Assembly: GCF_029872155.1 (NCBI RefSeq)
Contig: NZ_JARXLA010000002.1
Location: 496,001-560,000 of the forward strand
Length of the DNA: 64,000 nt
Source of the DNA: Hyphomicrobium sp. D-2
Lineage (GTDB): Bacteria > Pseudomonadota > Alphaproteobacteria > Rhizobiales > Hyphomicrobiaceae
Reading direction: 5' to 3'
The position numbers and the translations under genes were made by a program. The notes beneath the pieces are model-generated. The model was given only the letters and a program-made list of their open reading frames with translations. It did not search any database and had not been told where the DNA came from. Shown one piece after another: positions 3,976 to 18,294 of the stretch (the stretch's first letter is position 1; every line of letters begins with the position of its first letter).

Positions 3976-4021
3976 ATGGTGGGCGGTACAAGGATTGAAC
4001 TTGTGACCCCACGCGTGTGAA
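3976..4021 (-). repeat. Left attachment site: displaced 3' end of tRNA-Val
   Basis: These 46 bases are identical to 18219-18264. They contain the CCA end, the acceptor 3' strand, the T-arm and the 3' half of the anticodon arm of tRNA-Val. They do not continue into a full tRNA: bases beyond 4021 match the tRNA only patchily (gtgctc, ccgct). This is the chromosomal remnant left after integration. Confidence 0.93.
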
Positions 4022-4178: not shown

Positions 4179-5495
4179 TTGGGAAATAGAGCACACGTGG
4201 ATCTGAGAAGTCGAAAATCGCACCGGATTGAGCGTCTCACCAAGGCCGCCATCGAGTCCCTGCCACTTCCGCCTATTGATGCTGAGGGAAACCCTTCAGC
4301 GGTCGAAATTGCAGACCCCCTCCGCAAGAGTCTCTACCTGATCGTCCAGTCCAGCGGTCATAAGTCATGGGCTGTTCGCTATCGCCACAACGGTAAGACC
4401 CGCAAACTGACGCTCGGCTCATGGCCTGCCATTGATCTTGCTACTGCGCGTGATCTTGCGACCCGCGCCTTGCGTGCAGTGGCCGAGGGGCGTGACCCGC
4501 AAGCTGAAAAGCTGGAGGCACGCCGGCAGGCGCGCACTGACTTGTTCCCTGATGCAGCCCGGCAGTTCATCATCCGTTACGCCGAAGGCCGCAACAGATC
4601 GTGGGACGATCAACTGCGTCTGTTGGGGCTGCGGCTCAACCCCGAAAAGCCCGATGACATAGACCCGGCTGTTCGGCTTCTGGTTGCTGATGGTTTTGCT
4701 CAGCGCTGGGCAACCAAGCCAGCGCGCGACATAACCAAAAAGGACGTAATCGACGCGCTAGACGCGCTGAGCGACGACATATCGCCCATTGCCGCCAACA
4801 GACGACTGACGTTGCTCAAGACATTTTTCAACTGGGCTGTAAGTCGAGACATCTTACCGTTCAGCCCTGCGGCTGGGATCAAGCCGCCGGCTCCGGAAAG
4901 CTCCCGTGACCGGGTTCTGTCTGCTGAGGAAATGCGCTGGGTTTGGTCGGCGACGGACGCCATGGATGACCCGTGGCAGTCCTTTTTCAGGCTGTTGCTG
5001 CTGACAGCGCAGCGCCGGGATGAAGTCGCCGGCATTCGTAAGTCCGAGATACACGGCAACACGTGGGTGATCCCCGCAGAGCGCTCGAAAACCAAACAGG
5101 AGCATGCAGTTCCGCTGGTTGGTTCCGCAGCGGAGATTATCCAACGGCTCAGTGCATCGGCTGACGCAGATTGGTTGCTGACCACGACGGGGAGCGGCCC
5201 AATCAAGGGCTACAGTAAAGCGAAGGCCGCCCTGGATGCTGCCATTGCAGCAATCACAGCGAAGGAGCGTCCCGACATCACAATGCCAGGTTGGACGTTA
5301 CATGACTTGCGGCGCACCGCGACGTCAGGCATGGCGGCAATCGGTGTCGATCCGCACATTGCCGAGCTTGTGCTGGGGCACCGCGGCGCGCTCAAAGGTG
5401 TTGCGCGTGTATACAACCGTCATTCCTATTTGCCGGAGAAGCGCGCTGCGTTGGTGGCTTGGGATGCGCACATTGCGTACCTCCCGTTTGTGTGA
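4179..5495 (+). CDS. int: Tyrosine recombinase (P4-type phage integrase)
   Basis: This integrase of about 438 residues should catalyse site-specific insertion of the element into tRNA-Val. The N-terminal region ('LTKAAIESL', then 'SWAVRYRHNGKTRKLTLGSWP') matches the DUF4102/arm-binding domain of P4-type integrases, followed by a SAM-like core-binding domain and the catalytic domain. The catalytic residues are visible in order: the arginine in 'AQRRDEV', the lysine in the following beta-hairpin ('SKTKQEHAVPL'), 'LHDLRRT', 'LGHRG', and the nucleophilic tyrosine in 'RVYNRH'. It lies 158 bases from the left attachment repeat and reads inward. The first in-frame start is TTG at 4179, and GTG at 4197 is an equally possible start. 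The length is normal and no catalytic residue is missing. Confidence 0.93.
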   Translation: MGNRAHVDLRSRKSHRIERLTKAAIESLPLPPIDAEGNPSAVEIADPLRKSLYLIVQSSGHKSWAVRYRHNGKTRKLTLGSWPAIDLATARDLATRALRAVAEGRDPQAEKLEARRQARTDLFPDAARQFIIRYAEGRNRSWDDQLRLLGLRLNPEKPDDIDPAVRLLVADGFAQRWATKPARDITKKDVIDALDALSDDISPIAANRRLTLLKTFFNWAVSRDILPFSPAAGIKPPAPESSRDRVLSAEEMRWVWSATDAMDDPWQSFFRLLLLTAQRRDEVAGIRKSEIHGNTWVIPAERSKTKQEHAVPLVGSAAEIIQRLSASADADWLLTTTGSGPIKGYSKAKAALDAAIAAITAKERPDITMPGWTLHDLRRTATSGMAAIGVDPHIAELVLGHRGALKGVARVYNRHSYLPEKRAALVAWDAHIAYLPFV

Positions 5496-5508
5496 CCGGC
5501 GGCTATCG

Positions 5509-5724
5509 TCAGTCGCCTAACTGCTTCAGCTCGGCATCAATCGCCCCGATCCGTCTCTGATCTTCGGCCGTCGAGCTGTCCTTCGCTGGCGCTTGGCTCA
5601 CAATCGCATCCCTTTCTGCTCGAAGACGGGCGCGGCGTGTTGCCTTCGGCTCAAGTGATCCCGAGGGAGCTGGTCGGAAGGTTTTTCTCGGATCGCCAAT
5701 GCTGTGGTCGCTCATCTGTTTCAC
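5509..5724 (-). CDS. Small charged hypothetical protein
   Basis: This frame encodes about 68-71 residues on the minus strand, converging on the integrase stop with 13 bases between. The protein is hydrophilic, with an Arg-rich segment ('RRARLRAERD') and a C-terminal helix ('RRIGAIDAELKQLGD'). There is no signal peptide or membrane segment. I do not recognise a family. Small antisense genes beside integrases are often regulators or transfer-related, but nothing here shows that. An internal ATG at 5712-5714 ('MSDHS') is an alternative start. Confidence 0.5.
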   Translation of the reverse strand: MKQMSDHSIGDPRKTFRPAPSGSLEPKATRRARLRAERDAIVSQAPAKDSSTAEDQRRIGAIDAELKQLGD

Positions 5725-6194
5725 CTGTAAAACCGGCCAAAAACGAATTTCATTTATTGTTCTAAGGGTGTCTGTTCGGCAGAGTTATAATAATAAAGAA
5801 AACGTCCGAAATGATTAGTGCTTGTGAATCATCTTGCGAACATTGAGTGAATGCCGTAAATGCAAAAGGCCTGCCGTTTCGTCGACGGCAGGCCTTTGTT
5901 TGCTCGAACTGTTGGCTGCTGAACTGTTCGATGTCGAAATGAGAAATGCAGTTGGATTACCGTAGGTCCGGTGTCGCATTGTATAAAGGCTCGCTTTCTG
6001 TTCCGCAAGCCCTATTTGCGATGATCTCAACGCCTCAGGTTCGAGCAGCAAAGGCCAATGTTGGCTTATGTGCACGAATTATGAGGCTTTTCGTTTATGC
6101 AGAACGGTTCCTTTTGTTGTCGGTTTTGTACGGCACTTGTTTTTGTTTTGTTGACTGCTTTCACGCCTGAAATGGTCACCTCAGAGGTGGCGGC
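5725..6194. other. Non-coding stretch with a strong hairpin between integrase and DUF3987 gene
   Basis: There is no credible gene here, and base composition is visibly lower in GC than the host. A perfect 13-bp stem lies at 5865-5897 (AAAGGCCTGCCGT and its complement, 7-base loop) with T-rich sequence on both sides. It could terminate transcription in either direction and insulate the integrase from the rightward genes. The last 40 bases before 6195 are T-rich and hold the ribosome site 'gaggtggcgg'. Confidence 0.5.
5865..5897. terminator. Bidirectional intrinsic terminator candidate
   Basis: A 13-bp perfect stem with loop TTCGTCG is followed by ttgtttg on the plus strand and TTTTGCATTT on the minus strand. 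The stem itself begins and ends in A/T runs, as bidirectional terminators do. Confidence 0.7.
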
Positions 6195-8163
6195 ATGACG
6201 GGCGTGCATCAAGCCCGAGCGCGCTTTGATGCCGGCTCCGTTGCGCTCGACTACAGTGCTGCGCCGACTACGATTGAGGGTATTAGCGAATTTCTCGACG
6301 CTTATTCCGAGGACGGGTGGCCGGGGATGCCGCTGTCGTGGGATTCTATCGCTGCTGCGCTGACTGAGCTGCCACCTAGTTTCGGAGATCCTTACGGCTG
6401 TTTTGGCGTCGCAGAGCGCACCTACTTGCTGGTCGGGAGAGTGCTCCACTGGTGGGGCCATGCATGCGCTGACGCGTTAAGCGCGTGGACTAAATACACG
6501 GCGCAAGACCGTGTCCTCTTCTTGGACGCAGGAGGAGAGGTAGGGCTGCGCGCACAGTGGGAACAATTTGAAACGCACAGCACCGATGAACGGATGTACT
6601 GGGAGCTTGAGACGTTGCTCACGATGGCCTGCAACGCATGGCGCCTGGGCTACTCGATCAAACAGAACTCGGTCAGTCGTCCGGACGAGGTTGTTGGCGA
6701 CTGGTCAGAGCCGATTGATTTGTTCGGAACCGCTACCGCGAGCAAGCCGGCTACACTGACGCCTGATATGCTCCCTTTCGCTATCCGAGGGTATGCCGTC
6801 GACCAAAGCGAACGAATGGGCCTTGAGCTGGCCGCCATTGCAATTCCTGCACTCACTGTGGCGGCTGCAGCAATAACCGACGATCTCCAGATCCAGCATC
6901 TTCGCCATGATCACACATGGCTGGAAAGCGCGAGGCTGTGGAGCGTCATGATCGCTGAGCCAGGCAGCACAAAGACGCCAGCCATGAAGTCTACGATCAA
7001 GCCTCTGGAAGAGTTGCAGGCCACATGGAGCAAATCTTTCGCTAACGAGTGGGCGCGCTATCGAGCCGACAAAGACAAGGGGGGCGACCCAATTAAACCT
7101 GTCGAGCGGGCGCGCAATCGCCAACGAGTTTACAATCGAAGCGTTGGTGCCCGTGCTCAGCGAGAACTCTCGTGGCCTTCTCGTTTTCTGCGACGAGTTG
7201 TCGGGACTCGTGGGATCGTTTGATGCGTACAAGGCGCAGGGCGTGAAGAAGGATCGGGCTGCGATGCTAGAGCTTCATAACGGTGGCCCGAGGCGAGTGG
7301 ATCGAAAGTCGTCCGGCAACACGCTTGTTCCAAACTGGGGTGTCTCTCTCATGGGAGGCATTCAGCCGGACAAGCTGCAAGCGATGGCTAGCGGCCTTGT
7401 CGACGACGGCTTCCTTCAGCGTGCGCTGCTCTATGAGGGCCGGCAGACCGGAAAACGGTTAGACCGGCTGCCGGATGCTGCCGCCCTTGAAGCTTATCGG
7501 GTGCTCATTGGCAGGTTGGCAGCGATCAACGAAATGTCGTCGCCGGGATGCGTGGTAATGCACGAGGACGCCCATCAGCACCGCGAGCGCGTCGACATGC
7601 TGGTCGAAGCGTTTAAGAGCATGCCGACGACGCCAGCGGCTCTGAAGCAGCATTTTTCGAAGTGGCCGGGTCTCTTTGCTAGATTGGTGCTTACACTGCA
7701 TGCTGTCGAAACGGTCGACGCGGTCGGTGGAGTCGGGGCAGTGGTTTCCGAAGGTACTGCGAAGCGGGCGGCCGATCTGATGCTCTGCTTTTTTCTGCCC
7801 AATGCACTAACGATCTATCAGCAGTTCTTTGGAGGCTCAAACCCCCGTGCCGATCACGCGCGTTGGGTAGGTGACCATATCCTTGCGCACGGGCTCGCGA
7901 GTATTACGGCGCGGGATGTTTGCCGGGCCTATGGCAAGCTATCGAAAGATGAGAAGGCGCTAAAATTGACTATGGCGGATCTCCAAGCAGCAAATTGGCT
8001 CGGAGAGCCGGACTACTCGCATCGGGGCTCGGTGCGCTGGGCAGTAAACCCAGGCGTGCATGCCATTTTTGCTGAGCGAGCGAGAGTTGAGGGGCATCGC
8101 CGCGAGGCAGTAAAGCGGAAAATTCTGGAGAGCCGGGAAGTCATCAAACAAGCGCTGAACTAG
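6195..8163 (+). pseudogene. DUF3987 phage helicase/primase-like gene, split by a +1 frameshift
   Basis: Two overlapping frames (6195-7223 and about 7117-8163) together encode one DUF3987 protein of about 655 residues, a family common in mobile elements next to replication genes. The first part ends the family's nucleotide-binding segment ('EPGSTKTPA', a Walker-A-like motif near residue 259), and the second continues with 'LLVFCDELSGLVGSFDAYK' and 'ELHNGGP'. The reading switches near 7110-7120: skipping one base at about 7116 joins '..VERAR' to 'IANEFTIEALVP', which is the continuous family sequence. This is a one-base insertion, a programmed shift or a sequencing error. As read, the product is truncated at residue 342 in a wrong-frame tail. 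A ribosome site (gaggtggcgg) precedes the ATG at 6195. Confidence 0.82.
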
Positions 8164-8174
8164 AGCAGTGTCGT

Positions 8175-8274
8175 AACTGTCACTTGCGCGCGCGAAAGGA
8201 AGAGAGAAAAAGAGCAAGAGAGAGAAAATGGCGTTATTCTCTCTCATGCACGCAAGTGACAGTTTTGACAGTTT
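8175..8274. repeat. Nested inverted repeats plus tandem TGACAGTTT copies
   Basis: A 14-bp perfect inverted repeat (AACTGTCACTTGCG at 8175-8188, complement at 8251-8264) encloses a second perfect 9-bp inverted repeat (GAGAGAGAA at 8218-8226, complement at 8237-8245). The right outer arm merges into two tandem copies of TGACAGTTT (8257-8274). The cluster begins 12 bases after the DUF3987 stop. It could be a terminator, a protein-binding region or an origin with iterons. Confidence 0.6.
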
Positions 8275-8393
8275 GATCGTCCGTCGCCCACACCCGGTCA
8301 TACTGGGTTATAGGAGAGCGGCTGAGATCCAGCGGCGATCCCCGCTCCAAGCCGGACTTGCCGCCTAGTTTTTTATCAATTTGGATTTTTCGC

Positions 8394-9146
8394 ATGAACC
8401 CCAAATCTTGGCCGGTGCCGTTATGGTTCGGTATTATCCTCACCGCACTATGGCTGGTTATTTCAGTGGCCTACCTGTCTCAGAAGAATGTTTGGAGCCT
8501 TCAGCCCAATGAAGCCGGAGATCTTGCCGCGGGCATAAGCGCGCCGCTCGCATTTCTTTGGCTCGTGGTGGCAACGTTCTTACAAAAGGAAGAACTTAGC
8601 CTTCAGCGCAACGAGTTGAGGGAGAGTCGGGAGGCCCAACAAAAGCAGGCTCGAGAAACGGAAAATCTTGTCAGGCAGAACATGGCTGCCGTGGACGTCG
8701 CGAAGTCGACATTGTTTGAAAACCAGCAGCAATGGAAGGAGCAGCAACTTGCGCGACTGATCGATTCAATTGGTGAGTGGATTGTAGCAATTCGGTTGGA
8801 GGCATTACTTCAGAGAGGCGACCAGGAACTATATTTGCTTGGATATGGATCTGCGGAGGCTAACGAGGTGATTCGCAGAGCGGTGGATGCTCTGGCTTAC
8901 GCTATGCCTTTAAAAGCAAATGACTCGCTTGAGAATAGCGCGCTTATCCAACCAGCGTTGAGGAAGATTCTCAGCGCAATCGACGCGGTGCTGGTTGAGT
9001 TCGTCGACGAACCCTCTAACGACGGCAAGTCCAAGTTTCCGGACATCGAGATGCGCGTTGAATTCATTAAGCTGAGGCAGTTGAGGCGACAAATAGAAGA
9101 GCTGCTTATGTGGCTTGGTTTTGCAAGACCGTTGTTCGATCTCTAG
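8394..9146 (+). CDS. Two-TM membrane protein with long coiled coil, phage-exclusion-like architecture
   Basis: This 250-residue protein has two hydrophobic segments (about residues 6-28 and 47-64), then a highly charged amphipathic stretch ('LQKEELSLQRNELRESREAQQKQARE', residues about 63-120) that predicts a coiled coil, then a soluble helical region to the C-terminus. The layout, with two N-terminal helices followed by an 'LQ-EEL-L-R-EL-ESREA' heptad, is like that of putative phage abortive-infection (putAbiC-type) proteins. I make that comparison from memory of the family, without a search. The ATG at 8394 is preferred because the hydrophobic segment begins directly after it. It stands alone between the repeat cluster and the terminase-like gene, as accessory cargo genes often do. 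Confidence 0.7.
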   Translation: MNPKSWPVPLWFGIILTALWLVISVAYLSQKNVWSLQPNEAGDLAAGISAPLAFLWLVVATFLQKEELSLQRNELRESREAQQKQARETENLVRQNMAAVDVAKSTLFENQQQWKEQQLARLIDSIGEWIVAIRLEALLQRGDQELYLLGYGSAEANEVIRRAVDALAYAMPLKANDSLENSALIQPALRKILSAIDAVLVEFVDEPSNDGKSKFPDIEMRVEFIKLRQLRRQIEELLMWLGFARPLFDL

Positions 9147-9573
9147 TAGCCGTGTGTGTGTTTCTAATCGGCGCCAGTCTATCTTAAAGCAGCCCCGGTC
9201 GTTCCGGCGCAATCGCATGGAGAATGCGGCTGACGGGTCTGTATTTTCCATAAGATAGATTATGCGAATGGCCTAATGGCCTGAAAAACCCAGCATTTTC
9301 CGATGTTTTATGCGGCCATCCCTGAAGGGGTGGGCACCCCTCCCCAGCAACTATTGGCGCCGCTAGGCCCCATCTGAGTCGCGGCTCGCGCGGGGGCTGC
9401 ACTGTCCTTTTCTTGGCAGTTTTCAGCACAACTCCACTGGGCAACCCGAAGACTACTGGCCTGTGTTGCTGTGAACCAATCCGGTAAATCATTGAAAATA
9501 CTATAGTAAGAGAATAATTGCATTGACAACATCGTCTAGCGCGTGCCATAAAAGGGTTAATAGTCAAGTATAG
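9147..9573. other. Low-GC non-coding stretch upstream of the rightward phage-like operon
   Basis: I find no gene in this stretch. It contains a short G/C hairpin (AGGGGT/ACCCCT, 9326-9341), and its right third is A/T-rich and carries a good promoter (entered separately). It probably separates the accessory gene from the structural genes. Confidence 0.5.
9523..9552 (+). promoter_or_regulatory. Candidate sigma-70-type promoter for the terminase-like operon
   Basis: A consensus -35 box TTGACA (9523-9528) and a -10-like CATAAA (9547-9552) are separated by 18 bases in A/T-rich DNA just before the first gene of a tightly packed rightward cluster. Confidence 0.45.
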
Positions 9574-10074
9574 TTGCATTCGGTGTTGGTTGATATGTTT
9601 GATGCTGGCGATAATAGACATGAAGGTGAGGCGTTTAATCCTGATGAAGCGGCAAGAACACTTGGCTTGACCGCAAAGCAGCGTAAACTTGCTGACGCGA
9701 TACTGTCTGGCATGAGCCAAACGAAAGCGGCGATAGTCGCCGGTTATTCGGGCGAGCACACAACTGCAACCGCGTCGAAGGCGGCCAACTCAGAACGGGT
9801 CAGATCATATCTTGCCTGGGCCCGCGCAAGCGGCGCGGGCGTTCCGGATGAAGTCTGCTCTGACGACGAACTTCTGAGGCTTCTTTCCAGGAAAGCCCGC
9901 AACGGCGACGCCAACACGGCCATTAAAGCTGCTGAAGCGTTGGTGCGACTGAAACGGCAGGTACAGACGGAGGAAGCCGCGAAGCCCGTCGACCCTGTGA
10001 ACTTGATCGCGCGGATGGCGAACGTCGGCCCCCCGGGTGGATTAGGGCGAAACAGTCGCCCGTGTGTTGGCTGA
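9574..10074 (+). CDS. Small terminase subunit-like DNA-binding protein
   Basis: This protein of about 160-166 residues contains 'LTAKQRKLADAILSGMSQTKAAIVAGYS' near residues 32-60, the HTH segment typical of small terminase (Terminase_2/TerS) and related phage DNA-recognition proteins. In phages, TerS binds the packaging site and recruits the large subunit. The TTG at 9574, GTG at 9583 and ATG at 9595 are all possible starts, and none has a clear ribosome site. The expected partner, a large terminase, does not follow: the next frames are short unknowns. The C-terminal tail 'GPPGGLGRNSRPCVG' looks unlike a normal ending and may mark a deletion junction or frameshift. Confidence 0.75.
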   Translation: MHSVLVDMFDAGDNRHEGEAFNPDEAARTLGLTAKQRKLADAILSGMSQTKAAIVAGYSGEHTTATASKAANSERVRSYLAWARASGAGVPDEVCSDDELLRLLSRKARNGDANTAIKAAEALVRLKRQVQTEEAAKPVDPVNLIARMANVGPPGGLGRNSRPCVG

Positions 10075-10318
10075 GATGTGCTCGATCAACTGGTCGAAGA
10101 TCGAAAGCCGGCTAGCCCTGCACCCGATGCGCACGCCAGACGCGACGCGCATCAGCCGTGGCTATCCGAAGCCGGCAGACCAGCAAACAGCGGCACAGCC
10201 GCCCGACCTGTCGGAACGCCGCGAAGCCCGACCTGAACCTGCAACAGACTATTTCGAGCCCAACATTGTGGACCCCGACGGATCGCGTCGGATGCAAAGC
10301 GTTTTTGGAGAAAACTGA
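10064..10318 (+). CDS. Small hypothetical protein overlapping the terminase-like gene
   Basis: This frame of about 80-84 residues begins at GTG 10064 or ATG 10076 and overlaps or abuts the terminase-like stop (10072-10074), which suggests translational coupling. The product is Arg/Pro-rich and likely disordered in the middle. I do not recognise a family. It ends one base before the next start, so it fits the packed operon. It could also be the tail of a larger ancestral gene that lost its N-terminus when the packaging genes were deleted. Confidence 0.5.
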   Translation: MLAEMCSINWSKIESRLALHPMRTPDATRISRGYPKPADQQTAAQPPDLSERREARPEPATDYFEPNIVDPDGSRRMQSVFGEN

Positions 10319-10319
10319 G

Positions 10320-10577
10320 ATGGGAACTGCACCTCAGGGCATCCGCTTCCCAAAGCCGCTGGCGCCGCATCTGAACTTTGTTCCTGCCGGCCGCGGCCGA
10401 GTGCTGGGCGAGCTGACCGGCCCGGAAATTGTGGAACTGGGCCAGAAGCTGAAAGTCGCAGGCGTAAGTCACGAGCTGGGACGGCTCGGCAACGCTGAAA
10501 AGGTAGCCGCGCATCTTGGCGCAGTAGCTGATGAAGCAGGCCGCCGCGCGGTGGCCGAACTGATCAAGACGGTATGA
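10320..10577 (+). CDS. Small hypothetical phage-like protein, related to the 10588 product
   Basis: This 85-residue protein starts at ATG 10320, one base after the preceding stop, with 'tttttggagaaaactgag' supplying a ribosome site. Its core, 'RVLGELTGPEIVELGQKL' then 'VAGVSHELGRLGN', resembles the product of the next gene: LGE, a Glu-Leu/Ile helix start, LG, then a 'V-GV' turn, an Arg-x-x-N step and a C-terminal Ala-rich helix. The two look like products of an old tandem duplication. No known domain is recognised. It belongs to the same rightward transcription unit. Confidence 0.6.
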   Translation: MGTAPQGIRFPKPLAPHLNFVPAGRGRVLGELTGPEIVELGQKLKVAGVSHELGRLGNAEKVAAHLGAVADEAGRRAVAELIKTV

Positions 10578-10587
10578 GGCGCAAGCG

Positions 10588-10917
10588 ATGGCAGTGAAGT
10601 ACAAAAGCCGGCTGACGGAAACGGCCGTTTTCTCAGGTGGTGATCCCAGGGTTTCAACGGCAGCCGATATTCGCGGTCGCCGTGAAGCTGATCAGATCGG
10701 TGGCGATCTGGCGGGCATCGTGCTGCCGAACGGCAAAACGCTGGGCGAGTGCAGCAACAGCGAATTGATCGCGCTGGGGGCCGATCAGGGCGTTGATGGT
10801 GTTACCTCGGATGCGAGCCGAACGGCCAATCTGCAGGCATGGACCCGGTTTCTGGTCGACCTTGCAGCCCAGGGGCTGTCCAAGCGGACGCCCCGGAAGA
10901 AAGCGCCGAAGGGATGA
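10588..10917 (+). CDS. Small hypothetical phage-like protein with lysine-rich tail
   Basis: This 109-residue protein starts 10 bases after the preceding stop. It has an N-terminal basic stretch ('VKYKSRL'), a middle 'GIVLPNGKTLGECSNSELIALG' segment similar to the core of the 10320 product, and a strongly basic C-terminus ('SKRTPRKKAPKG') suited to nucleic-acid contact. No family is recognised. It is hydrophilic and soluble. It is probably a minor virion or DNA-associated protein, inferred only from its place in the operon. Confidence 0.6.
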   Translation: MAVKYKSRLTETAVFSGGDPRVSTAADIRGRREADQIGGDLAGIVLPNGKTLGECSNSELIALGADQGVDGVTSDASRTANLQAWTRFLVDLAAQGLSKRTPRKKAPKG

Positions 10918-10920
10918 CCG

Positions 10921-11187
10921 ATGGCGCCCACAACGTTGCAAGCAGCGCTATTCGAAGCAGATCTGCTCGACCGCGTTAGCAAGTTTGATCGCTCGTCCGC
11001 AGCCGAGTTCTGCGCCGCCGTGTACCGCGATTTGCATCGACTGAAACGGTCGGTTGCTTTGCTGGAACAGCGGGGCGACACTTCTGTTTACGCGGCGAAA
11101 ATTGATTTTCAATTCTGCAAGATCGAAGCCCAGGGCGCTTGTGATGCGGCGCTTGATTACTGGGCTCCAGACGGGAGGCCGCACTGA
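10921..11187 (+). CDS. Small hypothetical protein in phage-like operon
   Basis: This 88-residue protein starts three bases after the preceding stop, and its own stop overlaps the ATG of the next gene by one base. It is helical and charged ('AALFEADLLDRVSKFDRSSAAEF', 'VYRDLHRLKRSVALLEQRG') with three cysteines. I recognise no family. The tight spacing on both sides makes it a real gene of the operon. Confidence 0.65.
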   Translation: MAPTTLQAALFEADLLDRVSKFDRSSAAEFCAAVYRDLHRLKRSVALLEQRGDTSVYAAKIDFQFCKIEAQGACDAALDYWAPDGRPH

Positions 11188-12035
11188 TGGCCCTTGGAAC
11201 AATTGCCGGCGCGATTGCATCCGCTGGCGTAAGCGCTGCGGCGCAGAAACTACTCGGTGGGAAGAAAGCGGAACCCAACGTAGTTGCGACGAATCCATTC
11301 GCATTGCCGGAAGTGCAGTCGACGTTGAATCGACTGTCGAACCCGACTGTCGCCGGATTCTCAGGTGGTGGGCTCACTGGCTCGTTTGCAAACGGGCAGG
11401 CCAGCGTGACGGCTGACCCGACCCGAAGCGGCATCGTGAACAACATTGCGGGGCAGTTCGGGCTTCAGCTCGAACGCCTCAATGCGCTGGCCACACAGAT
11501 CGCTCCTGGCTATAGCAATATGCGGACGCAGGTTCTGGGCGATCTTGAGAACCAGCAAAAGAGCGCGATAGGCGATCTGCGCCAGAACCTTGCGAACCGG
11601 CGAGTGCTGGGATCGAGCTTTGCTCAAGACGCGCTCACTCGGGCTAACGCGACGTTCGCCAATCAGCGTTCGCAGGCGTCGGCGGATCTGTTCATGAAGG
11701 AACTGGAAACAACGCACGCGCTGATCACCGAACAGACGCAAGCCGGTGTGAACCAGTTCCAGACGCATCTGACCGAAGCCAATCTGGAAGCAGGCATCGC
11801 CGGTCAATTAGCGACTGAAGCGTCCAATGTCATGAACCAGGCCGCGCAGATTCAGGCCCAGCTCGTGGCGTCTCTTGCAGGTCAGTACACAACGGCGAGC
11901 ACGACAGCATCGGTCAAGAACGCGGACCTTGCTGCTCAATCAGCGACAGGCACCGGAACCTTTTGGAGCACACTTGCCCAGCCCGTTGCCGGCGCGGTTG
12001 GCGGTGAGATCACCAATCTGTTCGACAGGAAGTAA
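11187..12035 (+). CDS. Alanine-rich phage structural protein, internal virion/ejection-like
   Basis: This 282-residue protein begins with a Gly/Ala-rich hydrophobic stretch ('ALGTIAGAIASAGVSAAAQKLLGG'), continues with a long Gln/Ala-rich helical region and ends in another small-residue segment ('LAQPVAGAVGGEITNLF'). Short podophages carry internal core or DNA-ejection proteins with such small-residue, membrane-active ends and helical middles, followed by one or two larger helical proteins as here. The assignment rests on composition and gene order, not on a recognised domain. It overlaps the previous stop by one base and precedes the next gene by three bases. Confidence 0.6.
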   Translation: MALGTIAGAIASAGVSAAAQKLLGGKKAEPNVVATNPFALPEVQSTLNRLSNPTVAGFSGGGLTGSFANGQASVTADPTRSGIVNNIAGQFGLQLERLNALATQIAPGYSNMRTQVLGDLENQQKSAIGDLRQNLANRRVLGSSFAQDALTRANATFANQRSQASADLFMKELETTHALITEQTQAGVNQFQTHLTEANLEAGIAGQLATEASNVMNQAAQIQAQLVASLAGQYTTASTTASVKNADLAAQSATGTGTFWSTLAQPVAGAVGGEITNLFDRK

Positions 12036-12038
12036 GAC

Positions 12039-13133
12039 ATGGCTATGAACGGGCATGCTCTCGGTGGAGCCGCACAGGCGATCCAGGCGGATAACGTCCT
12101 GAAGTTAAAGCGAGACGAACAGGCACAACAGACCGCGCATCAGAATGCAACGCTGGCGCTTGAAGAACGCAAGCTGGGCGCATCTCAGCGGGGCGCACTG
12201 TTGAAACAGGCCGCAGGCGTTGTCGATGGTTTGCTCAAAACGATTGGCGACACTGCCACAGCGTTCAGGAACGCAGGCCATGGCACGGACAAGACCACGG
12301 CGGCCGTTGCACCGATGGTTGAACAACTGAAGGGGATCTATGCCAGCGCCGGCATGGACCCGGCGCCCGCGCTGTCACAGATACAGGCGATTGTCGGAAT
12401 GCCAGTGCAGCCCGGGACCGGCGACCAGAAAGACTATCTGTTTTACCAGCAGCAGGAACAGGCAGCCGGCCGTCCGGCGATGTCGTTCAACGAGTTCACT
12501 ACGCAACAGAAGAAAGCAGGCGCGTCGTCAACAAACGTCACTGTTGGCGGCGAAGCTGCATTTGCGAAGACGCTAGGTGAAGGCGCTGCAAAGGATCTGA
12601 TGGCGCGCCGAGAAGGTGCGCAGGATGCAGCGAAGTCGCTTGAAAGCACATATCAAGCGACTTTGCTGCTCGATAGCGGTGTGATTACGGGCACTGGCGC
12701 TGATTGGCTGTTGAAGGCTGGAAAGACGCTGCAGCAAGTCGGGATCAATCTTGCTCCTGATGCCATAGCAAATACCGAAGCGTTCGCAGCGCAGCGTGCC
12801 CAAGAGGTTGGGCGCGTCATCAAATTGTTCGGTGCAGGCACAGGTCTGTCAGATGCTGACCGAGAATATGCGCTGCAGGCTGCGGCCGGCAAGATCACGC
12901 TCAACGAGCAATCAATCCGACGCATTCTCGATATCAACAGTCGCGCGGCTCGCAACGTGCTGACGTCATACAATGCGGACGCGTCGCGAGTTGACACCAA
13001 CATCGTGCCTTTCGACTTGCGCGTCGCAGAGCCTCCTGAGCCGGCCAAGCCGCCTGTTACCAAGGTGATCAACGGAAAGACCTACTGGCAACACGATGGC
13101 AAATGGTTTGATGCGCCTCCGGGGAGCCAGTGA
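12039..13133 (+). CDS. Helical phage structural protein, internal virion-like
   Basis: This 364-residue protein is predicted to be mostly alpha-helical, rich in Ala and Gln ('KLKRDEQAQQTAHQNATLALEERKL' near the N-terminus). A folded middle carries 'GAGTGLSDADREYALQAAAG', a motif frequent in phage virion and structural proteins. It ends with a short 'VINGKTYWQHDGKWFDAPPGS' segment that looks like a small beta-hairpin. No signal or membrane segment is visible. It lies between the 11187 and 13137 genes with gaps of only three bases on each side. Its role is inferred from position. Confidence 0.62.
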   Translation: MAMNGHALGGAAQAIQADNVLKLKRDEQAQQTAHQNATLALEERKLGASQRGALLKQAAGVVDGLLKTIGDTATAFRNAGHGTDKTTAAVAPMVEQLKGIYASAGMDPAPALSQIQAIVGMPVQPGTGDQKDYLFYQQQEQAAGRPAMSFNEFTTQQKKAGASSTNVTVGGEAAFAKTLGEGAAKDLMARREGAQDAAKSLESTYQATLLLDSGVITGTGADWLLKAGKTLQQVGINLAPDAIANTEAFAAQRAQEVGRVIKLFGAGTGLSDADREYALQAAAGKITLNEQSIRRILDINSRAARNVLTSYNADASRVDTNIVPFDLRVAEPPEPAKPPVTKVINGKTYWQHDGKWFDAPPGSQ

Positions 13134-13136
13134 CCG

Positions 13137-14990
13137 ATGGCGGAAATCACTGATCCCGAACTTCTGGAACAGCTCAACAGCCCGGTTGAAGTCACAGATC
13201 CCAAACTGTTGGCACAGTTGAACGGCGAGCTACCGCCACCGCCAACAACAACAGGCGATGAGCCGGAAGCCTTCACTGCAACGTTCCTGCCTTTCAGCTT
13301 CGATCCGGCGAAGGACAGGGGTCACGACGAAGCCGTGAAAGCATCGGGAATGGCTGGTCCAACTGCGGGGCGTTTACCTGCCTACCTTGCTGCGCGCGGG
13401 CTTTCGCTGGCAGTTCCGAAGTTTATTACCGACACACTGGAAGCAAATGACCGCGGCATCGCCGGCGGCTATGCAACCGGTGAAGACGGCAACCGTCAGC
13501 GCGCGCAGGATGCGTTGACGGTTGCCGGTTCGATGATCGGTTTGCCGCCCGGCGCATCGGCAGCCGCAAAAGTAATACCGGCAGCTGTGAAAGAGATTCC
13601 CGCGGTAGCAGGTGGACCGGCGACGCACGGCGCCGTCCCTGTTGCTGCGGGTGTTGGAAGCCGTGAAGCTGCCTTACAGGCAGCCGAGCGAATTGGTGTC
13701 GACGTGCCACGGGCTGCTGCTGGCGGTTACGTTGCGCGTTCGACAGGTGCCGCGCTACGCGATGTGCCGGTTGTCGGAGATCCGCTTGTTAAGGCAAGCG
13801 AACGTGCGCTCGTCCAGATCGAAGGCGTGGCAAACAAGGTCGCTGACGATCTTGGCGGTAGCAGCACGTTGTCGGCAGGCTATGCTGCGAAAGACGCCAT
13901 CACGGGATGGATCGAAGCCGGTAGTAAAGCGGATGCAGCGGAAATTTACGCACCTGTTCGGGCGCTGATTAGCGACACGAAAGGGCCGCTGACGAGTGCA
14001 TCGTTTGTTGCGCAACAGATCCGCTCTCACGCTGAAGAGATAGGGCTCAAGGCACCGTCTGTTGTGCAAGAGATCGAACGCGCTGCCGCTATGGGGGAAC
14101 GCAGCTTCGATCAGATCCAGCGGCTGCGAACTGAGATTGGCGACCGGATGTCCGGCGCCATTGTTCCGGAGCCTGGGCAGAACGAAAAGGCGCTCAAGGC
14201 GCTGTACGGTGCGCTTAGCGAAGATCTTGATGGCCTGGCTGCGAAAGCCGGCGACAAAGCGAAAGCGGCTTGGAGCCAGGCCAATGACGTGTTTCGCCGG
14301 CAGATTGCCGACAAACGCAAGAAGCTCGTCAAAATCGTGGACGTCGACGGCGAGGCAAACGCTGAAACGGTTGCTCAGCGTCTGACGCAGATGGCAGCCG
14401 CAAAGCGTGGCGCTGACATCGAGCGGTTACGTGCTGCACGCGAAACGATGGGCGATGACGCCTGGGGCGAACTGGGCAGTGCGGTTGTAGCCAACATGGG
14501 CCGATCCAAAGACGGTTTCTCGCTGGCACGCTTCCGCACCGACTACGCGAAGCTCAGTGGTGACGGCAAGGCGCTGTTGTTCACCCCGGAACACCGGCAA
14601 GCGCTCGACGATATTGCGACTGTCAGCAAGAGCTTCGAACAGCTCGACCGTCTGGCCAACCATTCCCGCACAGCGGTAAGCGGTTCGATTTTCGGCGCTG
14701 GGTATGCCGCTATCACCAGCCCGATGCAGGTGCTGGCCAGCATGCTTGGCGGGCGTGCACTCGCGACCGTTCTTGCCCGCCCAGCAACGGCAAAGTCGAC
14801 GGCAGCTTACGCCAGAAGTTGGGCCGCTGCTGAAAAGACGCCAACGGAAGAAACCTATCTTGCGCTGGGCGCTGCATCGCGACGTCTGCGAGACGCTTTG
14901 GAGCGTGAACGCATCCCAGTCTATCCGGGTGTGAATGCTCTTCTGACTGATCGGGTCACTGCGACGGACGACGCAGACGAAACACAATGA
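13137..14990 (+). CDS. Large phage structural protein with N-terminal 'TDPxLLxQLN' repeats
   Basis: This 617-residue protein is the largest product of the element. Residues 3-30 hold two copies of a short motif, (I/V)TDP(E/K)LL(E/A)QLN, followed by a Pro/Thr-rich linker. After that come long Ala-rich helical regions and a segment of about 300 residues ('DAITGWIEAGSKADAAEIYAPVR', 'DRMSGAIVPEPGQNEKALKALYGALSEDLDGLA') resembling helical parts of large internal virion proteins. A hydrophobic stretch near residue 525 ('GSIFGAGYAAITSPMQVLASMLGG') could insert in a membrane during DNA ejection. I see no lysozyme or transglycosylase motif. The assignment as an ejection/internal protein is an inference. 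Confidence 0.6.
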   Translation: MAEITDPELLEQLNSPVEVTDPKLLAQLNGELPPPPTTTGDEPEAFTATFLPFSFDPAKDRGHDEAVKASGMAGPTAGRLPAYLAARGLSLAVPKFITDTLEANDRGIAGGYATGEDGNRQRAQDALTVAGSMIGLPPGASAAAKVIPAAVKEIPAVAGGPATHGAVPVAAGVGSREAALQAAERIGVDVPRAAAGGYVARSTGAALRDVPVVGDPLVKASERALVQIEGVANKVADDLGGSSTLSAGYAAKDAITGWIEAGSKADAAEIYAPVRALISDTKGPLTSASFVAQQIRSHAEEIGLKAPSVVQEIERAAAMGERSFDQIQRLRTEIGDRMSGAIVPEPGQNEKALKALYGALSEDLDGLAAKAGDKAKAAWSQANDVFRRQIADKRKKLVKIVDVDGEANAETVAQRLTQMAAAKRGADIERLRAARETMGDDAWGELGSAVVANMGRSKDGFSLARFRTDYAKLSGDGKALLFTPEHRQALDDIATVSKSFEQLDRLANHSRTAVSGSIFGAGYAAITSPMQVLASMLGGRALATVLARPATAKSTAAYARSWAAAEKTPTEETYLALGAASRRLRDALERERIPVYPGVNALLTDRVTATDDADETQ

Positions 14991-14999
14991 GGAAAACGG

Positions 15000-15221
15000 A
15001 TGTCCGACGATAATTCTGAATCCGCAACTGCCAAGAACGCCGTTTCTTCGGCCATCGAACAGATGAGCGACGAACATGCGGCCGAGGTTGCAAAGCTGGT
15101 TGCCGAAGATCAGGCGCGCCGCCATCAGGACGTGCGCGACCGCGAAACGGTCTCACACGGCAGTGACAACGAAGCGCGTGAGACGATCAGACGGCGCTTT
15201 GGTTACACGCCTTCATTCTGA
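15000..15221 (+). CDS. Small acidic protein ending in GYTPSF
   Basis: This 73-residue, highly charged and probably disordered or helical protein starts at ATG 15000, preceded by 'gaggaaaac'. Its C-terminus 'RRRFGYTPSF' matches the end of the next gene product ('RDKHGYTPHF'), suggesting a shared docking peptide. No family is recognised. It is co-directional and closely spaced with its neighbours. Confidence 0.62.
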   Translation: MSDDNSESATAKNAVSSAIEQMSDEHAAEVAKLVAEDQARRHQDVRDRETVSHGSDNEARETIRRRFGYTPSF

Positions 15222-15230
15222 GGATTGCGC

Positions 15231-16007
15231 ATGACAGATCAGAACACTCAGTCGAGCGACGTCGCGGCTGAAGCGCCGGGAGCATCCATTAATCCCGTCG
15301 ACGACTTTGCTGCGCTGCTCAACGAATATGATCGTTCCGTTGAAAGCTCAACGGCGGGTGCTGCTGCATCGGCGCCGATGCCTACTCAGTCAACGGAATC
15401 AGCTGCTGACGCTAGCCAAGTCACCGGCAAGGCAAGTGGTGGTGCCGCCGACCCAGTTCAGCAACAGTTCCGAGACATGATCGAGCGAGGTGAGTTCGAT
15501 GAACGAAACGCCCGTATCAGTCAGCTTGAAGGATTTGCACACGAAGCCGCGGCTTTCATGCAGACGCAGCATCAAGCACAGGTCGAAGCGGCGTTGCGCG
15601 CTCGGGACAAGGCCGACGCGGAGGCCGTTTTCTCGGAAGCTGAGACGATTATGGCGGACTTCCCACACGTCAACATGGACGTTCGAGCGTGGCTGAAGAA
15701 CGAGTTGGATCTGAACGCAGAATTAGCTCGGGCGTGGGAAGGCAGACATGAGAGTAATGAAGCAATGCGGCACGCGCGTTCAGCTGTAGACCGCGCTCTC
15801 AAGAAACTGCATCTGGCCGCGAAGCGGGAAGGGGAGCGTATCGCTGGATTGCAAGACACAGAAGATCGCGCGGTTGTCACGGCGTCGGTTGTCCGTGGCG
15901 GCGAAAGTGGGCCTCCGTTGGATAAGCCCGTAAGAGTCGGAAAGCTATCTGACGATGATTTGAAAAAGCACATGCGCGACAAGCACGGCTACACGCCGCA
16001 CTTCTGA
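15231..16007 (+). CDS. Scaffold-like helical protein ending in GYTPHF
   Basis: This 258-residue, acidic protein has a low-complexity Ala/Ser N-terminal third and a helical middle ('FAHEAAAFMQTQHQAQVEAALRARDKADAEAVFSEAE'). The C-terminus is 'KLSDDDLKKHMRDKHGYTPHF'. The composition and layout resemble phage scaffolding or head-assembly proteins whose C-terminus binds the capsid or portal, but no capsid gene is present. It starts 9 bases after the preceding stop. The C-terminal motif is shared with the product of that gene. Confidence 0.58.
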   Translation: MTDQNTQSSDVAAEAPGASINPVDDFAALLNEYDRSVESSTAGAAASAPMPTQSTESAADASQVTGKASGGAADPVQQQFRDMIERGEFDERNARISQLEGFAHEAAAFMQTQHQAQVEAALRARDKADAEAVFSEAETIMADFPHVNMDVRAWLKNELDLNAELARAWEGRHESNEAMRHARSAVDRALKKLHLAAKREGERIAGLQDTEDRAVVTASVVRGGESGPPLDKPVRVGKLSDDDLKKHMRDKHGYTPHF

Positions 16008-16103
16008 CCGAAGGCCGCGCATCTGCAGACCAAACGGGGCGCAAAGCGGTTGCAGCCGCCCGGCGCCCCTTGATCAGCACCTATGATGGTAGGAGCTAAC
16101 CCG

Positions 16104-17153
16104 GTGAAGAATTTTCGTTCATTTAGCGACACACGCCAAGATAAAAATTGCCGACACAACCAATCCAAGTGTTTAGGCAGCCGTAGTTCATACGGCGACA
16201 CAGCTTCCCGACTTCTCGTTGTCTCTGCTGCCGTGCTTCTGGTTGTCGCCAGCGCGGGTTTCGGAGCGCTGTTTGCGTGGCAGACCGGTAGCCGAAATGG
16301 CATCGCGCTCGGTGTGCTCTCGGTTGCGATGGCTCTAGGCCTCGAAATGGCCAAGCCGTTTGCGGTGAGCGGAGCATTGGGCTCGTTTCGAAGGTTCCGC
16401 ATCATAACAGGCATCGCGCTGTTATCGGTCGGGCTGTTGGCTGTGGGTTATTCGCTGCAAGCCGAGTTGACATATATGTCGGCGGCCCGCGGAGATCTGG
16501 CTGCAGCGCGGGCCACGGACGCGGCAGCCGTATCCCGTGCCGAGGCGCGTTACATGGCGGCTGTCGACGCGTTGGCCGAACTGAAGCCGGCCGGCACTTC
16601 CAAGAGCGCCACGGCGGCGTATCTGGCGCGCCGGGAAGCACTGGTCACTGAAGTGAGAAATGCTGAAGTGGACCGCAGGGCGGCGCCGGCAGAGATCGTG
16701 GCGGACCCAGGGGCAGATGCATTGGCAACTTACTCGGCTGCGCTGGGCTTCCAGTGGGATGCTCAGCAGCTGGGAAAATGGTTGCCGCTTGTCGGTGTGC
16801 TGGCTCTTGAGATCGGCGCGGCATTTGCCGTTGTGTTGGTCCAATCAGTGGCGCCGGCTGGATCAGGCGCTGGGCCAGCGGTGACGCAACAGGTGGGCCA
16901 ACAGACTATCGGCAGTCCGGATGTTGCGGTCCAGGACCAGCCGGCGGGGTCTGCCGAAACAGCCCGTGAACCGGGTAATGACGGCCCTGGCGGACCAGCT
17001 GCCCGGCGCGGGCTTACTGAGGTGCTGGCTGCTCTTCAGACTGGTGTGCATCAAGGTTCACAGCGGACCATTGCCCGAGCGCTGGGAACCTCGAAGTCAA
17101 CGGTATTGCGAGCCCAGCGTATGCTTGAGACACAGCAACTGAGAACCGCATGA
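16104..17153 (+). CDS. Four-TM membrane protein with C-terminal helix-turn-helix
   Basis: This 349-residue protein has four hydrophobic segments in its first 240 residues ('LLVVSAAVLLVVASAGFGALFAW', 'GIALGVLSVAMALGLEMAK', 'ITGIALLSVGLLAVGYSL', 'LPLVGVLALEIGAAFAVVLV'). A charged Ala-rich loop of about 90 residues lies between the third and fourth. It then has a Gln/Pro linker and a C-terminal HTH ('SQRTIARALGTSKSTVLRAQRML'). Such proteins may link a membrane signal to DNA or anchor replication. The GTG at 16104 was chosen because AGGAG lies eight bases upstream, and an ATG at 16083 is also in frame. No family name is recognised. It is separated from the structural genes by 96 bases. Confidence 0.72.
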   Translation: MKNFRSFSDTRQDKNCRHNQSKCLGSRSSYGDTASRLLVVSAAVLLVVASAGFGALFAWQTGSRNGIALGVLSVAMALGLEMAKPFAVSGALGSFRRFRIITGIALLSVGLLAVGYSLQAELTYMSAARGDLAAARATDAAAVSRAEARYMAAVDALAELKPAGTSKSATAAYLARREALVTEVRNAEVDRRAAPAEIVADPGADALATYSAALGFQWDAQQLGKWLPLVGVLALEIGAAFAVVLVQSVAPAGSGAGPAVTQQVGQQTIGSPDVAVQDQPAGSAETAREPGNDGPGGPAARRGLTEVLAALQTGVHQGSQRTIARALGTSKSTVLRAQRMLETQQLRTA

Positions 17154-17397
17154 CGTTTTGGGACGTCGCAAGCGGTTCAGCTCCCGATACGCCATTTTCG
17201 AATCGGGTTGCGGTTGTGATTTGAACAACGGATCGAAGCGGCGTTGCTGCGGCGTCAACAACGCAAGAGCGATGGGGCTGCTGTTGCTGAAATCGCAACG
17301 AATTGCGGGCAATAACGCAACCGCATGATTGTAGAAAAATCAATAAAAACAGTGCATTATGGCGTTATGTTAAATCAGACAAGAGAGAGCATGAGCC
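17154..17397. promoter_or_regulatory. Non-coding control region before the excision genes
   Basis: No gene is seen. It holds several related short words (aacgcaa at two places, gttgcgg, tcgcaacg) and an imperfect inverted repeat GCGTTG...CAACGC near 17241-17264. Such words could be binding sites for the HTH proteins encoded on either side or arm-type sites for the integrase. The right end is A/T-rich (17330-17370), as expected for a promoter. Confidence 0.35.
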
Positions 17398-17601
17398 ATG
17401 GCTTCAATCTTCCAGTGCCGCCTTGTAGACGTTGAGATCCTGTCTTTCACTTCGATCCTCGATACACCGCTCCGTGATCTGCCGGGTACTGTGTTTGCTA
17501 TCCGCTTGTTTGCGGGTCTCGACAACGAAACGGGTCTCCAGATTGGTCCTGTGTCGATCTACTTCTCGCGGGCCGAAGCTGACGCCTTGGCTTCACTCTG
17601 A
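17398..17601 (+). CDS. Small hypothetical protein
   Basis: This 67-residue protein has alternating hydrophobic residues typical of beta strands ('FQCRLVDVEILSFTSI', 'GTVFAIRLFAGLDNETGLQIGPVSIYFSRAEADAL'). The last part looks like a compact alpha/beta fold. There is no signal peptide. It follows an A/T-rich promoter-like region with 'agagagagc' upstream of the ATG and lies 82 bases before the excisionase-like gene. No family is recognised. Confidence 0.5.
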   Translation: MASIFQCRLVDVEILSFTSILDTPLRDLPGTVFAIRLFAGLDNETGLQIGPVSIYFSRAEADALASL

Positions 17602-17683
17602 CTTTTCGGTATCTCACCCTTACGGCATCGCGCCAACCTACCTCAGCATCCGGCTGGGGTGGACGCTTCAGGGGGAGAGTCCC

Positions 17684-18124
17684 ATGCGCGATCACGAATT
17701 GGATTCCGCTTCAAGTACGGCGGATTTGGTTGCGGAAGTCGAAGGTGTCGTTGCCGCCCTGCGAGGAGCCGCGGTCACCTTGGAGAAGTTGGCCCAGCTT
17801 CTGAAAGACCGGCCTGCCGCCAATCCGCTCTATGAAGTGTTTTTGACCGGCGAAGAGTTGTCGGCACGGTGGCGCCTCAAAGAACAGACGCTGGCAAACC
17901 AGCGAGCCGCCGGAGAAGGCATCCCCTACACGAAGCTGCCCAGTGGCTCCATTCGCTACAAGCTGGCTGACATTCTGGAAGCCGAGCGGGAGGGGCATAA
18001 GGGTTTTACCTGGTTCGCCCTCGAAAAGACTATTCGGAGGTTCCCCGGACTGGGCCCGAACACCCGTATCGCCCTTTGCAATTTTCTGCGGATAGAGAAC
18101 CGGCCACGGTTGCCGCGGCGGTAG
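17684..18124 (+). CDS. Excisionase-like HTH DNA-binding protein
   Basis: This 146-residue protein has an N-terminal acidic helix followed at about residues 53-105 by 'LTGEELSARWRLKEQTLANQRAAGEGIPYTKLPSGSIRYKLADILEAE'. That is the winged-helix pattern of the MerR-like excisionase/AlpA group (a helix with 'T-EELS-RW', a second helix, then a wing 'GIPY-KLPSG-IRYKLADI'). These proteins direct excision or control integrase expression. It is the last gene before the right attachment site, mirroring the integrase at the other end. The ATG at 17684 was chosen because 'gggggagag' lies just upstream; the frame is open further upstream but lacks family similarity. Confidence 0.75.
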   Translation: MRDHELDSASSTADLVAEVEGVVAALRGAAVTLEKLAQLLKDRPAANPLYEVFLTGEELSARWRLKEQTLANQRAAGEGIPYTKLPSGSIRYKLADILEAEREGHKGFTWFALEKTIRRFPGLGPNTRIALCNFLRIENRPRLPRR

Positions 18125-18218
18125 CATTCCAGAAGGATCAGCTGTTACCTGTATCAGTTTCCAGGTAACAAAACGCTGCCAGGAAGCTTGAGAAAAACGC
18201 CGTAAGTCATTGAAAACA

Positions 18219-18264
18219 ATGGTGGGCGGTACAAGGATTGAACTTGTGACCCCACGCGTGTGAA
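18219..18264 (-). repeat. Right attachment site within intact tRNA-Val
   Basis: These 46 bases are identical to 3976-4021. They cover the 3' half of the tRNA-Val gene and its CCA end, so the element restores a whole tRNA after insertion. Confidence 0.93.
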
Positions 18265-18294
18265 GCGTGTGCTCTACCGCTGAGCTAACCGCCC
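18220..18294 (-). tRNA. tRNA-Val(CAC)
   Basis: On the minus strand the sequence folds as a full cloverleaf: acceptor GGGCGGT with ACCGCCC, D-arm GCTC/GAGC, anticodon stem CACGC/GCGTG with loop TTCACAC (anticodon CAC, valine GUG codons), and T-arm CAAG-loop-CTTG. An encoded CCA follows discriminator A. Its 3' half is the integration target of the 14.2-kb element and was supplied by the element. Confidence 0.95.

Follow-up and report, generated by a model that had tools for sequence, protein, structure and literature searches.

A probable podovirus satellite of Hyphomicrobium sp. D-2 combines ejection-cassette and scaffold-type genes without recognizable capsid genes

To our knowledge, described phage satellites mostly alter what is packaged and the size of the capsid, or bring a whole capsid, and neither PLE of Vibrio cholerae nor P4 carries ejection proteins. 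The Sid protein of P4 is an external scaffold that reduces the helper capsid to T=4. Here, we analyze a 64-kb stretch of DNA from Hyphomicrobium sp. D-2 (the window), in which a rightward operon at positions 9574–16007 is likely to be the virion cassette of E1, a 14.2-kb phage satellite integrated at a tRNA gene. E1 belongs to a group of four related elements (E1–E4) that would depend on short-tailed phages (podoviruses) as helpers.

Phage satellites are generally about 7–20 kb long (PMC13376191). SaPI1 and other phage-inducible chromosomal islands (PICIs) of S. aureus and Gram-negative bacteria are described as islands with an integrase, attachment (att) sites, a replication gene and, in some, the small terminase subunit TerS (PMC5644958, PMC6092414); induction by phages and interference with them are among the features listed for PICIs (PMC6092414). 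CpmB of SaPI1, a protein of 72 residues, shares a C-terminal motif with the helper scaffold, binds the coat protein through it, and redirects capsid size, giving T=4 shells (PMC5644958). In PLE, the satellite-made scaffold TcaP reduces the capsid of the helper to T=4 (PMC10945586). Genes for capsid, portal, and both terminase subunits are present in capsid-forming PICIs and in the Streptomyces satellites MulchRoom and MiniFlayer; the words injection and ejection are absent from the main text of the article describing them (PMC10690885). Another article mentions 'ejection proteins' a single time, in the title of a reference (PMC6893505). A search of titles and abstracts of the open-licence literature with narrow terms gave, among the matches listed, no description of a satellite with ejection or injection proteins.

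E1 occupies positions 3978–18264 of the window, is inserted at a tRNA-Val gene, and measures 14,243 bp between identical 44-nt repeats. The empty site is present in a genome of the same genus (G001), in which the left flank of E1 aligns to positions 1031–3075 of the fetched stretch and the right flank to positions 3032–4363, with an overlap of exactly 44 nt; E1 itself has no match in this genome at the empty tRNA site. Two other genomes have the tRNA gene without E1, one aligning to both flanks (G006) and one only to the att part of the left flank (G002). The G+C content is 57.7% in E1 and 62.6–62.9% in the flanks. As a discrete integrated element of 14,243 bp with an integrase, attL, and attR, E1 is of satellite size, and it resembles SaPI1 and the PICIs in possessing an integrase, att sites, a replication gene, and TerS. 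The PICI gene order comprises int, a regulator, pri-rep, and terS; in E1, unlike in SaPI1 and the PICIs, an AlpA-like gene lies at the far end.

The operon is the middle of this larger mobile element. The preliminary description of the operon had missed the larger unit, its integration at a tRNA gene with both att repeats, and its relatives. What it said of the operon itself is borne out: TerS (PF03592 with an E-value of 8.5e-6, which narrowly passes the curated cut-off, and phrog_51 with E 6.4e-11) opens a packed, head-to-tail series of small genes, three larger genes (g5–g7), a 73-aa gene (g8), and a 260-aa gene (g9), and the open reading frames (ORFs) taken as genes fill 98% of the interval. 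No packaging motor, portal, capsid, or tail had been recognized, and profile searches of the 17 ORF products of E1 likewise gave no significant match to families of the large terminase subunit (TerL), portal, capsid, or tail. Among 29 chosen proteins of E2–E4, a set without the integrases, replication genes, ParA, and several small ORFs, there was one tail-fibre match, in E4, and none to TerL, portal, or capsid. The E1 family differs in this respect from capsid-forming PICIs, MulchRoom, and MiniFlayer, and does not belong to the capsid-forming PICIs.

The same gene set recurs at similar size in other elements, which the preliminary description had proposed to look for. E2 was identified from a second copy of g7 in the genome of Hyphomicrobium sp. 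D-2 (contig C8). It is 15.51 kb long, has 45-nt att repeats at tRNA-Thr, and is collinear with E1 but diverged, with the order integrase, D5-type replication gene, TerS, small genes, g5, g6, g7, g8, g9, membrane/helix-turn-helix (HTH) gene, and excisionase-like gene. Its g7 is split over two frames (L005 14123–16050) and is therefore broken. E3, from a metagenome-assembled genome of Hyphomicrobiaceae (G055; contig JAEUMD010000024.1), is 14.93 kb long with 63-nt att repeats at tRNA-Thr; its order is that of E1, with an AAA_25 replication gene and no match to g5. E4, found by a g9 search of the order sample in genome G470, is 14.76 kb long and located at tRNA-Ser. It shares the block TerS–small genes–g8–g9 and contains an integrase, a replication-ATPase-like gene (by reading), TerS, three small genes, a g4-like gene, a g8-like gene, and g9. 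In lieu of g5–g7, a tail-spike relative and the tail-fibre match follow g9. The spike is 39% identical to a protein of phage Pam5 at the place annotated as tail spike. E1 (14.24 kb) shares 42–43% integrase identity with E2, E3, and a further element of its own genome, and 35–43% TerS identity with E2, E3, and E4. The replication genes at the equivalent place are unrelated: DUF3987 in E1, D5-type in E2, and AAA_25 in E3.

A g7 search found the gene in 8 of 199 relative genomes, including that of Hyphomicrobium sp. D-2. The latter and G055 hold elements, while the stretches of the six others show at most g7 among the element genes; one of them (G074) reads as a prophage with g7 inside an ejection cassette. 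In the order sample, g9 was found in 2 of 397 genomes (our genome and G470), and the g6 profile in six, five of them much weaker than our own (E 7e-10 to 9e-7). Among 385 genomes of the class, g6 was restricted to our genome and g9 occurred in three (our genome, G564, and, weakly, G612 with E 5e-4). Two of 198 genomes of the family of G470 contained g9 (G470 and, weakly, G871 with E 8e-4). Genome contigs scanned with g7 alone gave no match and with the g6 profile three loci, one of which is E3; plasmids searched with g7 gave none.

An eroding podovirus lysogen, from which deletions removed the head genes and the majority of the tail genes, could in principle leave such a gene set. The replication gene of E1, which is divided between two overlapping frames (6195–8163) with profile positions 85–138 missing between the pieces, and the broken g7 of E2 would fit this history, as would the podovirus homologs of the ejection-cassette and scaffold-type genes and the fact that no helper was found in the own genome. 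However, the same subset in the same order is present in three elements (E3 without g5), with the TerS–small genes–g8–g9 part in a fourth, each 14.2–15.5 kb long; the att and empty-site structure is clean, and three unrelated replication genes occupy one place. Two further results speak against decay. In a tree of 30 g7 sequences, those of E1, E2, and E3 form one clade apart from phages (support 100/100, stem of 0.91 changes per column). Furthermore, the proteins of the elements are 32–51% identical, whereas their fourfold-degenerate sites are saturated: 81 of 249 are the same in E1 and E3 (shuffled mean 79.5), 78 of 233 in E1 and E2 (70.3), and 75 of 203 in E3 and E2 (75.2). Saturated silent sites together with conserved proteins, which reflect long-term constraint at the protein level, fit a long-kept function rather than separate recent decays. 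We rejected a simple decayed prophage on the grounds of recurrence, the g7 clade, constraint, and the differing replication genes, and consider such an origin unlikely. Within the g7 clade, E2 and E3 are sisters apart from E1 (99/97) despite their different hosts, so the tree of the elements does not follow their present hosts. Rows with matches shorter than 250 (g7) or 130 (g6) query residues were dropped from the trees, as was L065, which duplicates E3.

The three larger genes of the operon correspond to the ejection proteins of P22-type phages (gp7/gp20/gp16), g7 and g6 by homology and order, and g5 only through phage contigs L086 and L087. Over 66% of its length, the g7 protein shares 34% identity with the 'putative injection protein' of Rhizobium phage RHph_Y1_10; the corresponding values are 37% over 60% for a protein of Pam5 and 30% over 36% for one of VSN-002, in which the gene upstream of the g7 homolog carries the annotation 'DNA/protein translocase of phage P22 injectosome'. 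The family phrog_770, 'DNA transfer protein', is matched by g7 of E2 and E3 and by the RHph_Y1_10 protein; g7 of E1 itself matches only phrog_36512, of unknown function, as the RHph_Y1_10 protein also does. The mention of internal virion proteins in the preliminary description is borne out by these homologies. A structure model of g7 found nothing in the PDB by Foldseek at E 0.001; in a viral library it had 61 matches at E 0.001, with one named injection protein among the best 50 and TM-scores of at most 0.51. Profiles of g7, g6, g5, and g9 gave nothing against sequences of solved structures, or weak matches that were taken as chance.

The g6 protein is 59% identical over residues 165–332 to a protein of phage contig L030, and g6 of E2 and E3 are 43% identical to that of E1. 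Its hhalign comparison with the second proteins of phage ejection cassettes reached a probability of 99.8, which is partly by construction because some of the compared phage proteins were found via g6. Homologs of g6 and g7 are adjacent in contigs L048 and L057, which are identical here. In L030 (8972–10666), a stretch similar to phage endolysin/transglycosylase families precedes the g6-like domain, and g6 of E1 matches this protein at residues 165–332 only. The g5 protein is 36% identical to that of E2 and has homologs in L086 (E 3e-15) and L087 (E 2e-9), with no match in 50,697 phage records. The g5 homolog of L086 directly precedes two cassette-sized genes and a tail-spike-like gene. By position and homology, the g5–g6–g7 order resembles the podovirus ejection cassettes of RHph_Y1_10, VSN-002, Pam5, ct7QV12, and L086; RHph_Y1_10 and ct7QV12 have genes annotated as injection protein at the place of g5–g7. 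In phages, homologs of the element genes sit in virion gene clusters, and the ejection cassettes there accompany portal and coat genes, whereas that of E1 adjoins only TerS and the scaffold gene.

The last two genes of the operon, g8 and g9, appear from their sequences to trace to a phage scaffold. The g9 profile matches a protein of genome G564 (L083:15922–16620) with E 1.2e-12 and an hhalign probability of 98.4. We read the G564 protein as a scaffold because its gene has a portal-like gene (phrog_332, E 2.4e-7) on one side and a major capsid gene (phrog_1357, E 5e-38) on the other, where scaffold genes are typically found; through this homolog, the earlier label 'scaffold-like' suits g9. L084, L085, and L086 have homologs of the G564 protein flanked by portal and capsid genes. 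A search of G564 for g7 gave no match. Phage ct7QV12 (42,697 bp) has the same kind of capsid gene with a 231-aa gene upstream, to whose product g9 of E4 is weakly similar (E 0.004). Scans of viral contigs with g9 gave no match, and neither g9 nor the G564 scaffold had one in the 50,697 phage records. The structure model of g9 is all helical and of low confidence (mean pLDDT 59).

The short g8 protein carries the C-terminal tail of g9. The alignment of the two tails scores 48 in E1 and 93 in E2, and none of 2000 shuffles reaches either score; the match is weak in E3 (49 of 2000 shuffles) and in E4 (13 of 2000, tied with the tail of the G564 protein). In E1 and E2, g8 has its best partner in g9 of the same element, as it does in E3 by a margin of one point; the g9 profile by itself finds g8 of E2 (E 4.9e-5). 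A weak match of g8 to the tail-chaperone model PF21822 (E 0.14) is below the cut-off. Short and bearing a scaffold tail, g8 is anatomically similar to CpmB of SaPI1 and may likewise redirect capsid size. Unlike in SaPI1 and the PICIs, a full-length scaffold-type g9 and a short g8 are present in the same island. A satellite-made scaffold is also a feature of PLE (TcaP) and P4 (Sid), and a capsid-shrinking role of the E1-family proteins would extend this likeness. However, TcaP and Sid are external scaffolds, whereas the homolog of g9 occupies the position of internal scaffolds, between portal and coat genes.

We consider it about as likely as not that E1–E4 are a family of podovirus satellites that re-specify a stolen virion through their own TerS, the capsid size (scaffold and CpmB-like copy of its tail), and an exchangeable ejection machine or tail spike, while the helper provides coat, portal, and motor together with the greater part of the tail. 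Upon infection by a helper podovirus, the island would excise by means of the integrase and AlpA-like protein and replicate, and its TerS would point the helper TerL to island DNA. The g9 protein and g8, the copy of its presumed coat-binding tail, would cause the helper coat to form small capsids fitting 14–15.5 kb, about one third of a podovirus genome of ~42.7 kb. Filled with g5–g7 of the island, or equipped with its own tail spike in E4, the particle would deliver DNA on the terms of the island, which would provide the specifying parts and rely on the helper for portal, coat, and motor and for the larger part of the tail. The elements of 14.2–15.5 kb amount to 0.33–0.36 of the 42.7 kb of ct7QV12, and 'capsids 1/3 the size' are described for some PICIs with small capsids (PMC6092414).

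One capsid-related phage lineage contains relatives of TerS (L084), of the scaffold link (L084–L087), of g5 (L086, L087), and of the E4 spike (L086, ct7QV12); owing to these shared relatives, it is our best guess for the helpers. The genome of Hyphomicrobium sp. D-2 has two TerL matches. One is in a cluster resembling a gene transfer agent (GTA) at 313.7–319.6 kb of contig C2 (L007 of genome G000), where TerL (PF03237, E 6e-41) is followed by portal, prohead protease, and capsid genes (by eye). The other is in an integrated element of about 16.2 kb (C2:251310–267576; L070/L071) with a 27-nt repeat at tRNA-Arg(tct). This element encodes an integrase 43% identical to that of E1, an excisionase-like gene, a replication initiator, TerL (phrog_2, E 8e-18), and a long tape-measure-like gene (by eye); no capsid gene was recognized in it by eye, and it could represent a satellite of a different type or a prophage that has been shortened. 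Near its edge (C2:266677–267285) lies a 38% identical relative of a ParA-like gene of E3 (L015 15686–16375).

Several observations weigh against the satellite interpretation or parts of it. No podovirus prophage that could serve as helper was found in the own genome, where the TerL matches are those of the GTA-like cluster and the 16-kb element and a P22_portal search gave no match; a resident helper is rejected as far as searched. The closest phage relatives of g6 and g7 are on other phages than those of g9 and g5 and therefore do not establish a single helper lineage. Although recurrent, the family is rare in the genomes searched, the att repeat of E4 is only 14 nt long, and the empty-site evidence covers E1 alone. 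The satellite clade is unresolved in the g6 tree (53/79). As regards g5, its placement in an ejection cassette draws on L086 and L087, in which the two L086 genes after the g5 homolog do not match g6 and g7 (BLAST E 0.66 and 0.35), and hhalign gave no match between g5 and gp7-type phage proteins (probabilities 0.2 and 0.6). Similarly, g9 of E1 alone had no significant pairwise match to the phage scaffold (E 0.22), and the g9 proteins of the elements had no direct tblastn match to the scaffolds of L084–L087 at E 0.01, the link being via the G564 protein. Finally, the E1 replication gene and E2 g7 are broken; such copies may require complementation, be degenerating, or reflect assembly errors.

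The virion-like proteins might instead serve an anti-phage island, as dominant-negative parts (wrong scaffold, wrong ejection proteins) that poison podovirus assembly with little or no transfer of the island. E1 does carry parts that a helper particle would take up, and satellites are known to hinder helpers by scaffold-type proteins such as CpmB (PMC5644958) and TcaP (PMC10945586). Nevertheless, the retention of TerS, integrase, excisionase-like gene, and att sites fits transfer, and PADLOC detected nothing in 10 proteins of E1–E3; a purely defensive island is improbable in our view. We regard as very remote the idea of a phage-derived element with another role, for example a DNA-delivery device using particles of the resident GTA-like cluster (C2:313.9 kb). 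That cluster has TerL and portal-, protease-, and capsid-like genes, and we take it to be GTA/siphovirus-like from its gene order. In contrast, the homologs of g5–g9 belong to podovirus-type clusters, and no E1 protein matches the 20-kb stretch containing the GTA-like cluster at E 0.01.

From the three readings offered by the preliminary description, a satellite using the capsid of a helper is thus the best supported, on the basis of the collinear 14.2–15.5 kb elements at tRNA genes, their differing replication genes, the single g7 clade, and the scaffold-derived g8 and g9; a simple decayed prophage poorly explains the recurring subset, and another role is not favoured. The description had named the discovery of TerL, portal, or capsid among these genes, or of the same operon in complete prophages, as grounds for rejecting its claim. 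Neither was found in what was searched, and no prophage holding the whole TerS–small genes–g5–g6–g7–g8–g9 operon was encountered in a survey that is incomplete.

The features of E1 are listed in Table 1. The listed ORF of g2 begins with GTG at 10158 and has an in-frame ATG at 10320, and the real start of the AlpA-like gene is probably the ATG at 17684. A scan of viral contigs with the E1 membrane protein gave no match. The small proteins between TerS and the ejection genes resemble diverged copies of one family with the pattern LP-G-x-L-x-GVPG (by eye); proteins of this type are encoded at 10320–10917 of the window, at about 10931–12100 of L005, at 19181–19887 of L075, and at the joint of L075 and L076 (19890–20153).

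Table 1 Features of element E1 in the 64-kb window
Feature	Position	Strand	Evidence or remark
attL	3978..4021	.	44-nt copy of tRNA-Val 3' part; identical to 18221–18264
Tyrosine integrase	4179..5495	+	PF13356 6e-20, PF00589 5e-14, phrog_1 2e-56
Replication gene DUF3987/helicase, first piece (broken)	6195..7223	+	PF13148 profile positions 4–84
Replication gene DUF3987/helicase, second piece, other frame	7144..8163	+	PF13148 profile positions 139–361
Membrane protein (by eye)	8358..9146	+	phrog_9267 7e-14, unknown function; no match in PADLOC
TerS	9574..10074	+	PF03592, phrog_51, phrog_641
Small ORF, 84 aa, possible gene	10064..10318	+	ORF only; no family match
Small protein g2	10320..10577	+	C-terminal region similar to small proteins in E2 and E4
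Small protein g3	10588..10917	+	Weak matches at same place in E3 (E 0.005) and E4 (E 1e-4)
Small protein g4, 88 aa	10921..11187	+	Position only; by eye, small ORF at same place in the other three elements
g5, putative first ejection-cassette protein	11187..12035	+	Homologs on phage contigs L086, L087
g6, second ejection-cassette protein	12039..13133	+	Phage contig L030; hhalign to phage second ejection proteins
g7, third ejection-cassette protein, DNA transfer/injection type	13137..14990	+	Phage homologs, phrog_36512 6e-16, tree
g8, 73 aa, carries C-terminal tail of g9	15000..15221	+	Shuffle test
g9, scaffolding-protein homolog	15225..16007	+	Profile and hhalign match to L083:15922–16620
Membrane protein (by eye), weak C-terminal HTH match	16083..17153	+	Kept in E2 (51%)
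Excisionase/AlpA-like HTH protein	17432..18124	+	PF12728 E 0.005 (below cut-off), phrog_7735 excisionase E 0.006; E2 44% over 86 aa
attR	18221..18264	.	Within intact tRNA-Val(cac) 18220–18294, minus strand

Virion genes in a satellite are shared with MulchRoom and MiniFlayer, and the tail fibre gene in a putative adsorption module of MiniFlayer parallels E4 (PMC10690885). The E1 family differs from SaPI1 and the PICIs in adding ejection-cassette proteins or a tail spike, in having homologs in podoviruses, and in residing in Alphaproteobacteria. As far as we found, the combination of ejection proteins or a tail spike with TerS and a scaffold pair, in the absence of capsid genes, is new. If our interpretation, including the proposed mechanism, is correct, satellites can parasitize the delivery step by itself, with their own ejection proteins or, in a sister element, their own tail spike. 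Scaffold-type satellites would then extend to podoviruses and Alphaproteobacteria. The g8/g9 pair, with a short protein reproducing the tail of a full-length scaffold from one and the same island, would add a second and apparently independent example of the CpmB solution. The E1 family offers a direct way to ask whether ejection proteins have to fit the capsid into which they are packaged, the length of the genome, or the host entered.

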